Below, in pieces: positions 1,361 to 28,157 of a stretch of 64,000 nucleotides of DNA; positions within the stretch are counted from its first letter, which is position 1; the number at the start of each line of letters is the position of its first letter. The stretch covers positions 1 to 64,000 of the forward strand of contig JAUJOK010000018.1 in the NCBI GenBank assembly GCA_030447685.1, written 5' to 3'. The notes beneath the pieces were generated by a model, which had not been told where the DNA came from, searched no databases, and saw nothing but the letters and a program-made list of their open reading frames with translations. The position numbers and the translations under genes were made by a program. Source of the stretch: Armatimonadaceae bacterium. GTDB lineage: Bacteria; Armatimonadota; Armatimonadia; Armatimonadales; Armatimonadaceae.

Positions 1361-4300
1361 TTGAAGCCAAAACATTTTCTGATCGTGCCAGTGCTGATGG
1401 CAGCAATGTATTTCGTTGTGCCGGGAATGGAACCCGTGGCGGAGGCTCAGGAGCCTGTACCGCAAGGCATACCCCTGCCGGTAGAAATTGAAAGCGGCAA
1501 ACGCGCCCGCGTCAACCTGAACGGCCCCTGGAAGTTCTCGCCCGCGCGAAGCATCAGCGGGCAGGCCAATGCCGCGCCGCAGCAAGGCTGGGGTCGGATT
1601 CAGGTGCCCGGCTCGTGGCGTCGCAGCCAGGACATAATCGAGGTGGGTACCGGCCCGCAGTGGGCAGGTTTCGATGGCAGCAAGTTGGCTGGCGCGTGGT
1701 ATGAGCGCCGCTTCAAAGTGCCCACCGACTGGAATGGTCGCCACATCTCGATTGATTTTCAGCGCGTCAGCACCGACGCTACCATTTGGATCAACGATAA
1801 GCCGGCGGGAAAAATCGACTGGCCCGAAGGCGAACTCGACATCACCCCTCTGGTCACGCCCGGTCAGGAAGTGACCTTGCGTGCCTTCGTCGTAGCTACC
1901 CTTGATAAAGCGGAAGCCCTGGTTTTGATGGGCAATGAACCCGGTCAGAACTACACGGCCAAAGCCGAACTGCAATCCGGCGGAATAGTCGGCAGCGTGA
2001 CCCTGAAAAGCCGCCCGCATGGTGCCCATATAAGCGACGTTTATATCAAACCGAGTACTCGCAGGAAGGAGTTGGGTACCGATGTCGAGCTGTCCGGCGT
2101 GACGCAGAGCGGGCCGGTGCAGATTGTCGCCCGTCTGCTGGATGAAAATGGGAGCGAAGAAAAGCGCTTTACGCAAACTGTCAACGTGGTAGCTCGGTCG
2201 AAGCAGAGCGTGCAAATAGCCTGGCCGTGGACGAACCCGCGTTTGTGGGATTACAACAAGCCCAACCTGTACACGATGCGACTGAGTGCAAAGGGTGCGG
2301 GCGTCGATGACGAGACGGCTCAGAAATTTGGATTTCGTGAAGTATGGGTACAGGGACGCGAGGTGTTCTTTAACGGCACGCCGTTTCGTATCCGTCCGTT
2401 CTTGTTGGGTGCGACTGGGGCTAACGAAGGGGCCAAGCGCTTAAAAGAGGCGCGTGAACTGGGCTATAACTTCGGCGAACTGTGGCCGGAAGATATAGAA
2501 TCGCGCAGCCGCGACGCCCGTTATACCGACTGGTATGATGTCGCCGACCGCGAAGGTTTCCCAATTTCCGGCGTCATGCCGCACATGGGTTGGATGGGCA
2601 GCCAGATCAACTCACCTGACAAAATGGCCACATATCGCGCAAAAACCGAGCGTCTGATGCGTCGCTATCGCAATCACCCGTCAGTCATCATCTGGGGAAC
2701 ATCGGGCAACATGATGGGCGGCTCGCGTGATCCGCGCTACGTCGGTCTGCGTGAGGAGTCCATAGCCTCAGAGACTGTGCGCGGGTCCCAGAGTGCTCGG
2801 ACAATCCCTTTAGCTGAAAAAGGCGTCAATATTATCAAATCGGTTGATCCGACTCGTCCTGTTCTGATCCACAATGGGGGCGCAGCAGGAGATATTTATA
2901 CGCTCAACCACTACCTCAACTTCATTCCACTGCAGGAACGGGAAGAATGGCTTTCCAATTATGTGGTGAAGGGCGACATGCCATTGATGTATGTCGAATT
3001 CGGCACACCAGTCAACATCAGTTTAATGCGCGGGCGCAGCGGTTTTCTTAATGCCTACGTCAGCGAAAATTTGCTCACCGAGTTCACCGCGATCTATCTG
3101 GGCAACGAGGCATACAAACTTGAACCCGCCGATTACCGCAAACGAACGGCGGAACGTTTTGTGAAAGACCAGGCCTACCAGTGGTCGCAGAGCATGAAAG
3201 AGCGGGATTTCTCGCCGAGTTGGATGCAGTTGCAGGATTTGTTCATTAGAAACACCTGGCGTTCGTGGCGTACCATGGGCATAACCGGTGGAATGGTGCC
3301 GTGGGACGAGGGTTACGTCAGGCTCAACGGACAGCTTACACCTGCCGGAAAAGCCATGCGCGCCAACAATAGCGACACACTGGCATGGATCACGGGCGCC
3401 GCCCAAACCGGCGACATCGCCGCCTTCACCTCTAAAGATCACTCTTTCTTCGCCGGAGAAAAGGTTCGCAAGCAAATCGCGCTGCTCAACGATGCCCGTA
3501 TCGTGCAGAAGTACACCTTGCGATGGACGGCAACCATCAATAACAAGATCGTTGGGAGTGGCAAGATGAGCGGCAGCCTGGCCGTCGGCCAAACTCTCTT
3601 TGTGCCGTTCGAGTTCGCTGCCCCCACCACAACGAGTAAGGCGAACGGAGCGATTACTCTCGATGCCGCCATCGGTGAGAACAAGCACTTCGACCGCTTC
3701 GATTTTCGCGTCTGGCCGCGCGCTGTTGCATCCAAAGGCACCATCAGCATCTTCGATCCTGAAGGCAAAACGAGCGCGATGCTGCGTGCCCTCGGCTACA
3801 CCGTCGCGCGGTGGAACGGAAAATTCAGCACTCAATTGCTGGTGATTGGCCGCAACGCTTTGAAAAACGGGGCCAAGCTTCCTGGCGACCTGAAAGCTTT
3901 CGTGGAGAACGGTGGCCGGGTGCTTCTTTCGGGACACGATCCGCACTGGCTGCGCGGAAATATGGGCGTGCGCGTGTCCTACCATCAGTCGCGGCGTTTG
4001 TGGAATGTCGGTGACGCCCCGATTGTGCGTGGGTTGGACGAGTTGGATTTGCGCGACTGGCGCGGCCACAGCACTTTGCTTAATCCTCGCCCGGACTACA
4101 ATAACCAAAAAGGTCCCGATGTCCGACTCGCAAAAACCACCTATCCCTATGCCGGTTGGCGCTGGGGCAATCGAGGCACCGTGGCTTCGGCAGCGATTGA
4201 AAAGCCGCATCGCTCTGGATGGAGACCGTTGCTGGAAAGCGAGTTCGATCTGGCGTATTCGCCGTTGATGGAACTCGATTTCGGCAAGGGCAAAATGATT

Positions 4301-12622: not shown

Positions 12623-13272
12623 TGCTCCTTGTTACTCCTTCGCGGGGCAACCCCTGGCACTCCAGAGCCTTCCACGGCTCTGTCCTGGTTCACCGGCAAC
12701 GCTCCGGCGCCCGAGGGCCACGTACCGTTGCTCCGCCTACATTATACAGATTATAGATAAGAGCGGCAGCTTAATCCCGGCCGAGCATCCGCAGTCGGTC
12801 TTTCTCCACGACAGCCAGACCCTTGGGTTCCTGAACGCTACCAGGGACCAGCTCATCAACACGTCGGCGCTCGACTTCTCGTACGCAACCCCGCACCCGA
12901 CCGACCCTGACCTGGATTAAGATGACCAAGGCACGGGCTAGAATCCCCAACAGCGCCGTCACGGTGAGCTCAACCGCGGCACACCTGGCGGTGACGACGA
13001 CGTTCCCGGTCTATCGCTACGTCGTGAACATTATCACTGCCGAGTTCTAAAGCGCTAATCTCCCCGCCGGAGACCCAACGCGGTGCTGTCATGCCAACTC
13101 TATGACCTGGACGCCGCCGTGTCAGAAAACGCAGGTTTTAGGGAACAAACCGGGCACATGCCGCTAACGTACAATGGTGTGATTCTTAGGGAGGAGCGTG
13201 TACAAGGCTGAGTCCTTCGCCAGGAGGCTGTGGTACCATCCAAAGTGGCTTCGCACGAAGAGGAGGACAACG
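12623..13272. other. gene-poor stretch with possible coding remnants
   Basis: About 650 bases between the divergent beta-helix and HTH genes. Apart from the possible gene remnant listed separately and a small stem-loop at 13125-13139 (GAAAACGCAGGTTTT), nothing coding is convincing. Confidence 0.5.
12741..13050 (+). pseudogene. possible broken gene remnant, unknown
   Basis: Two short plus-strand frames have protein-like composition: one up to 12919 (containing HPQSVFLHDSQTLGFLN and ending PTDPDLD), then a second frame from 12922 to the stop at 13048-13050 (containing VYRYVVNIITAEF). They could be neighbouring pieces of one frameshifted gene, but I recognise no family and neither has a good ribosome-binding site. 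Low confidence. Confidence 0.25.
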
Positions 13273-13482
13273 ATGGTTAGTAGTACGGATAGCCGTGATC
13301 TGCTCACGGTAGAACAGGTGGCGGCCCTTCTGCAGATGAGCCAGTCCAGCATCCGCTCCTATATCCGTCAGGGCAAGCTCTCCGCCTTTCGCATCGCCGG
13401 AAAGCGCAAGGTGCTCATCGCCCGCCCCGCCCTGCTGGCGTTGCTGGAGCCGGCACGGACAGACCAACACGAGGCGGCATAA
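13273..13482 (+). CDS. small helix-turn-helix protein (excisionase/MerR-like, HTH_17)
   Basis: A 69-residue DNA-binding protein. The pattern LLTVEQVAALLQMSQSSIR followed by SYIRQGKLSAFRIAGKRK is the winged HTH of excisionases and MerR-like domains: helix-turn-helix, then a basic wing. The ATG is preceded by AGGAGGAC at ideal spacing, so it is preferred to the GTG 25 codons upstream. It sits alone between decayed DNA and a DUF72 gene. Such proteins act as phage or transposon directionality factors or as small regulators. No integrase is in this window, so the role is open. Confidence 0.8.
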   Translation: MVSSTDSRDLLTVEQVAALLQMSQSSIRSYIRQGKLSAFRIAGKRKVLIARPALLALLEPARTDQHEAA

Positions 13483-13654: not shown

Positions 13655-14401
13655 ATGACAGAGAATAAATTGCACCCCAACGTTTACATCGGCTGCGCCG
13701 GATGGAGCATTCCTAAAGAGCACGCCGAGCAGTTTCCTGAAGCTGGCAGCCACCTCATGCGCTATGCCCAGCGCTTCAGCGCCGTCGAAATCAACTCTTC
13801 CTTCTACCGCTCTCATCGCCCTGCCACGTTCGCAAAATGGGCAGCCTCGGTCCCTGATCACTTTCGGTTCGCTGTCAAGGTGCCCCGCCAGATCACCCAT
13901 CTTCGCCGCTTGGTGGATTGCGTAGAACTGCTGGAAGGCTTTCTGGCAGAGGTCGGGGCACTGGGCGAGAAGCTTGGGCCGCTTCTCGTACAACTCCCGC
14001 CCAGCCTTGTCTTTGATGCGGCGATTGCCTCAGCGTTTTTCGTCACACTGCGAGATCGCTTTGCCGGAAGCGCTGTCTGTGAGCCGCGTCATCCGAGTTG
14101 GTTTCAACCTGATGCCGCGCAGGTTCTGGTAGAGTTCGAGGTAGCACGTGTCGCCGCCGATCCCGTTGCCCCTGTTCCTGAGGCAGCACAGCCGGGCGGG
14201 TGGAGCGGCCTGGTGTATTACCGCCTGCATGGCTCCCCGCGCATCTACTACTCCGCCTATGAGGAGCACTACCTGGAGACGCTGGCAGGAAAGCTGCATG
14301 TACCGGCGGCTGCTTCGGCTTCGGTCTGGTGCGTCTTCGACAACACCGCGCTGGGCGCTGCGACGGCCAATGCTCTATACATGGCACAGAGCGTGCAGTA
14401 G
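13655..14401 (+). CDS. DUF72 domain protein (YecE-like)
   Basis: A 248-residue DUF72 TIM-barrel protein, full length for the family. Recognisable blocks are YIGCAGWSIPKE near the N-terminus, RFSAVEINSSFYR, FRFAVKVPR, the LGPLLVQLPPSL strand and YYRLHGSPRIYYSAY near the C-terminus. The biochemical role of DUF72 proteins is not established; they are cytosolic and often annotated YecE. No strong ribosome-binding site precedes the ATG. It stands alone, with a putative minus-strand small RNA about 130 bases beyond its stop. Confidence 0.88.
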   Translation: MTENKLHPNVYIGCAGWSIPKEHAEQFPEAGSHLMRYAQRFSAVEINSSFYRSHRPATFAKWAASVPDHFRFAVKVPRQITHLRRLVDCVELLEGFLAEVGALGEKLGPLLVQLPPSLVFDAAIASAFFVTLRDRFAGSAVCEPRHPSWFQPDAAQVLVEFEVARVAADPVAPVPEAAQPGGWSGLVYYRLHGSPRIYYSAYEEHYLETLAGKLHVPAAASASVWCVFDNTALGAATANALYMAQSVQ

Positions 14402-14528: not shown

Positions 14529-14561
14529 AAAAAAGCGACGGCACCGCCAAAGTGCTGTCGC
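14529..14561 (-). terminator. intrinsic terminator of the putative small RNA
   Basis: A 10-bp GC-rich stem (arms 14535-14544 and 14552-14561, one A-C mismatch) is followed on the minus strand by TTTTTT (14529-14534). Classical rho-independent layout. Confidence 0.75.
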
Positions 14562-14586
14562 CTGTGCCTTCCCCGCAGTTGAATAT
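14529..14586 (-). ncRNA. putative small RNA of about 58 nt
   Basis: On the minus strand a consensus promoter (TTGACA-18-TATAAT) predicts a start near 14586. The transcript would have a 5' single-stranded segment rich in G and A, then end in a 10-bp hairpin (GCGACAGCAC / GTGCCGTCGC, one mismatch, 7-base loop) followed by six U's. No open frame of useful length and no gene downstream on that strand explains this unit, so a stand-alone small RNA is the simplest reading. No known family recognised. Confidence 0.6.
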
Positions 14587-14592
14587 GTTCTT

Positions 14593-14622
14593 ATTATAAC
14601 ACGGTGCACCCCCCTCTGTCAA
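14593..14622 (-). promoter_or_regulatory. consensus promoter of the putative small RNA
   Basis: Minus strand: TTGACA (14617-14622), 18-bp spacer, TATAAT (14593-14598). Both hexamers are perfect sigma70 consensus. Confidence 0.7.
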
Positions 14623-14810
14623 AGCGGCCCTCGCTGAGCACAATCTCATTGGTTATGCACATCCGAAAGATTATCGGCTGGTCAACAGCAAGAATCGGAC
14701 GTTGAATAGCACCACCTTCAACGATAGAAAGGGTTTGGCTGTCTCTTATCTGTCTCCTGTTTCTTTTTTACTGTCTCTTGTCTTTTCAAGAAAGCTGTGC
14801 TCGGTTCCGG

Positions 14811-14930: not shown

Positions 14931-15489
14931 CCAAAGAAAAGGACAAGCAAAGAGCAGTCGAAGCACTGCCAACAGATCGGTGACAAGGCATTAGAGCGTA
15001 CCGTGACGGACGAGCAGAAGAAACCGGCGCTGCCGCGATTCGGGTACCCGGCCCAGAACGCGCGATGAAAAAGGGGCAGAAGCGGAGGGCCCAGTAATCG
15101 AGACCTACCCGATGACGGCGGGTGAATGTGTTGTTGAGTTCAGTAACAGTGGCAACGCTTGCTATTAGTTGCACTGATGCTTTCTGTCCGGAAGAAGATC
15201 CGGCGTCAGCCGTTACTCGGTGCATAAGAGCGTCCGCATTAAGTGGCGTGGCCGACATCGAGCTGTTCTTTCTGCCGTCCTGTCAATCATGCGAAATCTT
15301 CAGAAGCGCGTTCATAGGCGCACGTCAAATCTATAGAACCGCGAACAATCCCGCGGTTGCAATCTGATTTCGGTTAAAACAGTGACCGGGCAGGAAAAAC
15401 CGCCTGCTTCCCGGAAAACAAAGGGCAGTCAGCGCCTTTGGCGGCGTGCCCATTGTCCCCTGCTCCCCAACAAAAAAGAAAAGAACGAC

Positions 15490-23904: not shown

Positions 23905-24020
23905 TTGGCTTTTAGCTCCTCGAATATCGAGTGTGGCCGTGCAGAATGATTCCGTCACGGCAATACCCCCTCCCCGGCCCCTCCCCACGCTGTGGGAGAG
24001 GGGAGAAAGAGGGGTTAGTT

Positions 24021-28157
<4,137 letters not shown>

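Follow-up and report, generated by a model that had tools for sequence, protein, structure and literature searches.

A dispersed, order-specific family of sigma70 promoter and early-terminator modules with a -10-like element at the predicted RNA start in Armatimonadota

At the lambda late promoter PR', a sigma70-dependent pause occurs at about 16 nt, before an intrinsic terminator is reached, and is brought about by a -10-like element at +1 to +6 (PMC4604602). In Pseudomonas aeruginosa, a chromosomal promoter/terminator leader is controlled by AlpA, which recognises an element within the promoter (PMC7969949, PMC9371919). Short RNAs also arise from the csRNA genes of Streptococcus, which are driven by the CiaRH regulator (PMC4211561), and from Rli51 of Listeria monocytogenes, a 5'UTR whose early termination yields a short RNA (PMC11394854). 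Small RNAs in Armatimonadota seem to have received little attention in print: of seven papers that a literature search found to name both, none deals with the subject. Here we examined a 64,000-nucleotide stretch of an Armatimonadaceae genome (hereafter the window; whole genome 5.0 Mb in 116 contigs), in which an earlier note had proposed a stand-alone small RNA gene on the minus strand. We found this proposal supported, and strengthened by conserved copies of the unit; the multi-copy nature of the unit, a -10-like element over its start and the many relatives that stand as leaders before genes had been missed.

Inspection of the minus strand between 14529 and 14622 confirmed, at the same coordinates, a TTGACA-18-TATAAT promoter, a predicted 58-nt transcript and a hairpin followed by six U's, with no gene served. 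The -35 box TTGACA (14622-14617) is perfect in eight of the nine core copies described below and degenerate in the copy C59. It is followed by an 18-nt spacer (14599-14616), the first 15 nt of which are 53% identical to the paralogue C80a, and which carries at its 3' end the conserved TG of an extended -10 (14601-14600), one base before the -10 box TATAAT (14598-14593; identified from the sequence and the alignment of core copies). A second -10-like hexamer, CATATT (14582-14587, approximately -1 to +5; YATANT in the family), spans the predicted +1, an A at 14586. The mostly unpaired 5' region of the RNA (14562-14586) holds GGGGAAGG at 14574-14567, and the 27-nt terminator hairpin GCGACAGCACTTTGGCGGTGCCGTCGC (14561-14535), indicated by folding and by covariation, runs into the T6 tract (14534-14529) that marks the predicted 3' end; the predicted transcript (14529-14586) was derived from these two ends. 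Beyond it the minus strand offers just the 3' end of a convergent, plus-strand DUF72 gene (13655-14401; Pfam PF01904, E = 1.4e-53), which is the nearest downstream feature. With its own promoter, a short non-coding predicted transcript, an intrinsic terminator and no gene of its own, the locus would qualify as a small RNA gene. No Rfam 15 family matched the window at the gathering threshold, and the best match at a lax threshold was Xoo2, with 15.6 bits where 45 are needed. The fold energy of the RNA is unremarkable by itself (z = -1.9). Upstream of the promoter, at 14735-14790, lie degenerate CTGTCTC(T) repeats (plus strand ctgtctcttatctgtctcc...) that are partly kept in C80a; the CTGTCTCTTAT within them is identical to the beginning of a widely used transposase sequencing adapter, which is probably a coincidence. 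Elsewhere in the window, an imperfect palindrome of ~124 bp (23966-24089; 73% self-complementary over 135 columns) surrounds the start of rpoC.

Consensus sigma70 promoters are uncommon in this genome, at about one per 110 kb, and the window unit is the sole 12/12 match within 9-20 kb. The perfect pattern nevertheless occurs 44 times genome-wide versus 0 for a reversed control, indicating that consensus sigma70 is a genuine promoter type here. Loss of promoter and hairpin in close relatives, which the earlier note had named as one outcome that would count against the gene, is the reverse of what we observed: both are retained, the hairpin with covariation. Compensatory changes affect three hairpin pairs among nine core sequences and four among 13, exceeding all or nearly all shuffles as well as slid controls; a further, larger count weighs less because its alignment was structure-fitted and includes a few doubtful rows. 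An alternative GGCAC/GUGCC antiterminator pairing that can be drawn in the window copy is, by inspection, not retained across copies, and among these we found no conserved antiterminator pairing or aptamer.

A BLAST search with a 221-bp query detected four further copies in the window genome and two in a second genus, one of the latter on a contig matching a record of the uncultured Armatimonadetes bacterium AVDCRST_MAG63. Covariance models brought the count to six in the window genome (G000; C77, which is the window copy, C80a, C80b, C54, C59 and C89) and three in the second genus (G003), and a third genus (G006) holds at least six, comprising four full members of the last model and at least two seen by eye. 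Chance is excluded by the existence of these further copies. Within the same order, the last model matched 12 of the 19 genomes examined at E <= 0.01, versus none of 20 from the rest of the phylum, and an earlier model run over 291 phylum genomes matched five, every one in this order; the genomes compared are mostly draft assemblies. Since the model itself rewards the promoter and the T-tract, the weak members that it found in the sister family may include look-alikes. Matches of the first models outside the order (G022, G029, G031 and G036) were treated as look-alikes; the last model has none there. A search of phage records for the window unit returned no match, and 37 viral contig matches to an 18-mer included none with a family-like score (best 26.8 bits). 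The closest copies all carry the -10-like motif at the RNA start, and so the unit looks like a member of a genuine family of short RNA units that has no name as yet. Judged from sequence, this family is order-specific, undescribed and marked by a distinctive start-site element, and it would add a conserved, multi-copy, order-wide RNA unit to those without an Rfam entry.

The copies occupy unrelated loci without synteny, except for C77 and C80a, which have 277 bp around the unit in common and an HTH_17 gene nearby in both. This HTH_17/MerR-like gene (window 13198-13482; contig L038 6444-6693, near C80a) is 80% identical at the DNA level; between it and the unit stands the DUF72 gene in the window and a BamHI-type restriction-modification system at C80a, and the relative orientation is inverted. 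A further 49 bp of the window (15235-15281) are 92% identical to L038 17716-17764, about 9 kb from C80a. Members are also found close together or nearly identical: two in G006 (L056 821-940 and 1501-1617, on C19) stand in tandem 680 bp apart, each before its own ORF, and G002 has near-identical units at different loci (L053 1501-1634 and L196 1501-1634), apparently from a recent duplication.

C77 and C80a provide the clearest test for selection, because their nearby flanks are 58-59% and their -35/-10 spacers 53% identical. Against this background, the -35 region (7/7), TGnTATAAT (9/9) and the T tail (11/11) are unchanged, the segment comprising the discriminator and the 5' part of the RNA (14592-14564) matches at 28 of 29 positions, and the hairpin at 25 of 27, so that promoter boxes and transcript parts are 93-100% identical. 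Altogether 80 of 83 positions match in the functional parts, versus 133 of 228 in nearby flanks plus spacer (Fisher p = 1.9e-12); against the spacer alone the difference remains strong (p = 4e-5). Retention of boxes and transcript while spacer and flanks diverged indicates that the unit is under selection, and a diverged spacer between two perfect boxes argues against gene conversion.

Besides promoter and terminator, all nine core copies have in common the hexamer CATAWT exactly five bases past the -10, which puts the predicted +1 on its first A; the corresponding RNA 5' end reads AUAWUC (in one copy AUAAUU). Across a wider set of 31 members, gathered by a model that rewards the hexamer positions, the consensus is C/T-A-T-A-N-T, with A second in 28, T last in 29 and any base at the fifth position, and this YATANT profile is, as a sequence pattern, that of a -10 element. 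At 14 offsets checked after the -10, no YATANT-like hexamer was present in any of 25 other perfect sigma70 promoters of the genome, whereas within the window genome alone six of six copies have it. Most of the nine core copies, all of them high-scoring, were first detected by BLAST, and the 25 control promoters do not depend on the model.

In many members, arranged like terminated leaders, an unrelated gene begins 9-60 nt past the end of the unit (C59, C89, G006b, G006b2, G006c, G013a/G016a, G014a/G018, G005a and G005b). These genes encode haem-dependent N-demethylase-like, aminotransferase and histidine phosphatase proteins and, each in two species, SMP-30-like and cytidylate-kinase-like proteins; in the window genome, C59 is followed by a 97-aa ORF and C89 by a secreted-looking ORF. 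In 10 of 32 members, an ATG/GTG ORF of at least 100 aa starts between -5 and +65 nt from the end of the module, compared with 8% of control positions (p = 2e-4). In the sister family a gene directly follows most relatives, and two pairs there have orthologous placement (G013a/G016a and G014a/G018). Elsewhere C80a lies 227 nt upstream of the DNA methyltransferase of the BamHI-type restriction-modification system, and G003b is separated by a second terminator-like hairpin from the ECF-type sigma factor gene that it precedes. For C77, C80b, G003a and G006a the only gene nearby is a convergent one, and the terminator of C80b may work in both directions. The mixed contexts suggest a family made up partly of leaders and partly of free-standing units. 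Directly after the intact C54 copy, a tRNA-editing (YbaK-like) gene (L039 ~3540-4010) appears frameshifted, which could reflect a pseudogene or an assembly error.

The explanation that we rank first, and to which we give an even chance, is that these are dispersed, order-specific modules of sigma70 promoter, start-site -10-like element and early terminator that yield short RNAs, gate transcription as leaders where a gene follows, and in the window copy produce what is likely a trans-acting small RNA. Each module would combine a near-consensus sigma70 promoter with extended -10, YATANT over the start and an intrinsic terminator 50-100 nt downstream. In the window, RNA polymerase would initiate at A14586, binding of sigma70 to the -10-like element is predicted to hold it early and briefly, and most polymerase would then terminate at 14529, releasing an RNA of ~58 nt. 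A gene downstream would make the module a leader that gates read-through; since none follows the window copy, that copy would make nothing but the RNA, which would most likely act in trans as a small RNA. Against this explanation, the downstream genes have no common function.

The earlier note had offered GGGGAAGG as a pairing seed or as a site for sequestering a protein, and neither suggestion fared well. GGGGAAG(G) is present only in C77, C80a and C54 (three of nine core copies), and the complement of CAACTGCGGGGAAGG, the 15-mer around it, has 21 matches in the genome versus 22 for a control, with no enrichment. Protein sequestration finds little support: CsrA is encoded in the genome, but GGA motifs are too few, with about one in the 5' region of each G000 RNA and none there in the three G003 copies, and we rejected a CsrA-sequestering RNA of the CsrB/RsmY type, which has multiple GGA motifs in loops. 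A different pairing role, which we consider less likely than our first explanation, is that the copies are sibling small RNAs that redundantly use the conserved 5' end (AUAWUCRA...) to pair with mRNAs, perhaps helped by Hfq; their placement before genes would then be incidental, and the resemblance of an AU-rich seed to a -10 element a coincidence. Several related copies in differing contexts are also seen in known sibling small RNAs (PMC4211561), and here one genome has six, of which C77 and C80a agree at 93-100% in their functional parts and throughout the 5' region. Only a convergent gene is close to C77, C80b, G003a and G006a, and Hfq is present in the genome (canonical at C53; we also noted a second, divergent Hfq-like protein, L116, at C90:3185-3343). 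Such a seed would, however, be short and AU-rich, and a freely varying +4 between fixed neighbours is odd for pairing; the complement of the tested 15-mer containing GCGGGGAAGG is not enriched in the genome, and most relatives in the sister family directly precede genes.

This last point, together with gene starts 9-60 nt past the terminator in many members, could be read as plain cis attenuation, with promoter and conditional terminator serving the next gene and the window copy an orphan relic left after loss or replacement of its gene; the frameshifted tRNA-editing-like gene after the intact C54 copy would fit. We consider this unlikely, because a relic would be expected to degenerate, whereas the promoter of the window copy is perfect and its transcript matches that of a diverged paralogue at 93-97% identity, and because the downstream genes are unrelated and neither an antiterminator pairing nor an aptamer is conserved. 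Dispersal over unrelated loci without synteny, and the 277 bp plus nearby HTH gene common to C77 and C80a, might suggest a small MITE-like repeat, selfish or transposed, that carries promoter and terminator by chance. That is very improbable: no common ends or inverted repeats were seen, similarity stops at the unit in most pairs, the functional boxes are selected and the spacer is not, and placement in the sister family is orthologous (G013a/G016a, G014a/G018). We give almost no credence to the hairpin being mainly the terminator of the convergent DUF72 gene. It does lie about 130 nt past the DUF72 stop codon, but on the plus strand it is followed by CTGTGCCTTCCCC and not by T's, which refutes that role for the window copy, and promoter and 5' region are conserved too.

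If the start-site element does pause polymerase, the modules of our preferred explanation would be a case of cells using, at sites scattered through the genome, a mechanism whose study has centred on phage late promoters, and their copies are sites for a direct test of start-site pausing. A broader version, which we regard as rather unlikely, is that one order of Armatimonadota possesses a dispersed chromosomal regulon of sigma70-pause leaders, in which the second -10 at the start site stalls polymerase and some factor licenses passage of the terminator. Such a regulon would be the host's equivalent of the lambdoid late switch, and its free-standing copies would make short RNAs.

Compared with known systems, the modules resemble the csRNAs in that a single genome has several related small RNA genes, set in differing contexts and varying in number between species (PMC4211561). 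They depart from the CiaRH-driven csRNAs in their near-consensus sigma70 promoter and start-site -10-like element, and in the many relatives that precede genes. Early termination of a 5'UTR into a short RNA recalls Rli51, which acts both in cis and in trans (PMC11394854); Rli51, however, is a single locus of 121 nt with a predicted terminator/antiterminator switch, and no such switch is conserved in the modules. The AlpA-controlled leader (PMC7969949, PMC9371919) is likewise a chromosomal promoter and intrinsic terminator before genes, with an in-promoter element where the modules have an unconserved spacer. A strict analogue of lambda Q control seems doubtful: no antiterminator is known and no Q homologue was identified for the modules, and a spacer only 53% identical between the closest paralogues speaks against a conserved, lambda-Q-like site between -35 and -10. 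Unlike lambdoid leaders, the modules are chromosomal, short (about 58 nt) and present in many dispersed copies, some of them, including the window copy, having a terminator with no gene behind it, while many relatives have the gene as well. What they share with the lambdoid late-gene leader (lambda PR', PMC4604602) is its core layout, namely a sigma70 promoter, a -10-like element in the initial transcribed region (~+1 to +6 there, YATANT at -1 to +5 here), an intrinsic terminator downstream and a short terminated RNA, here predicted.
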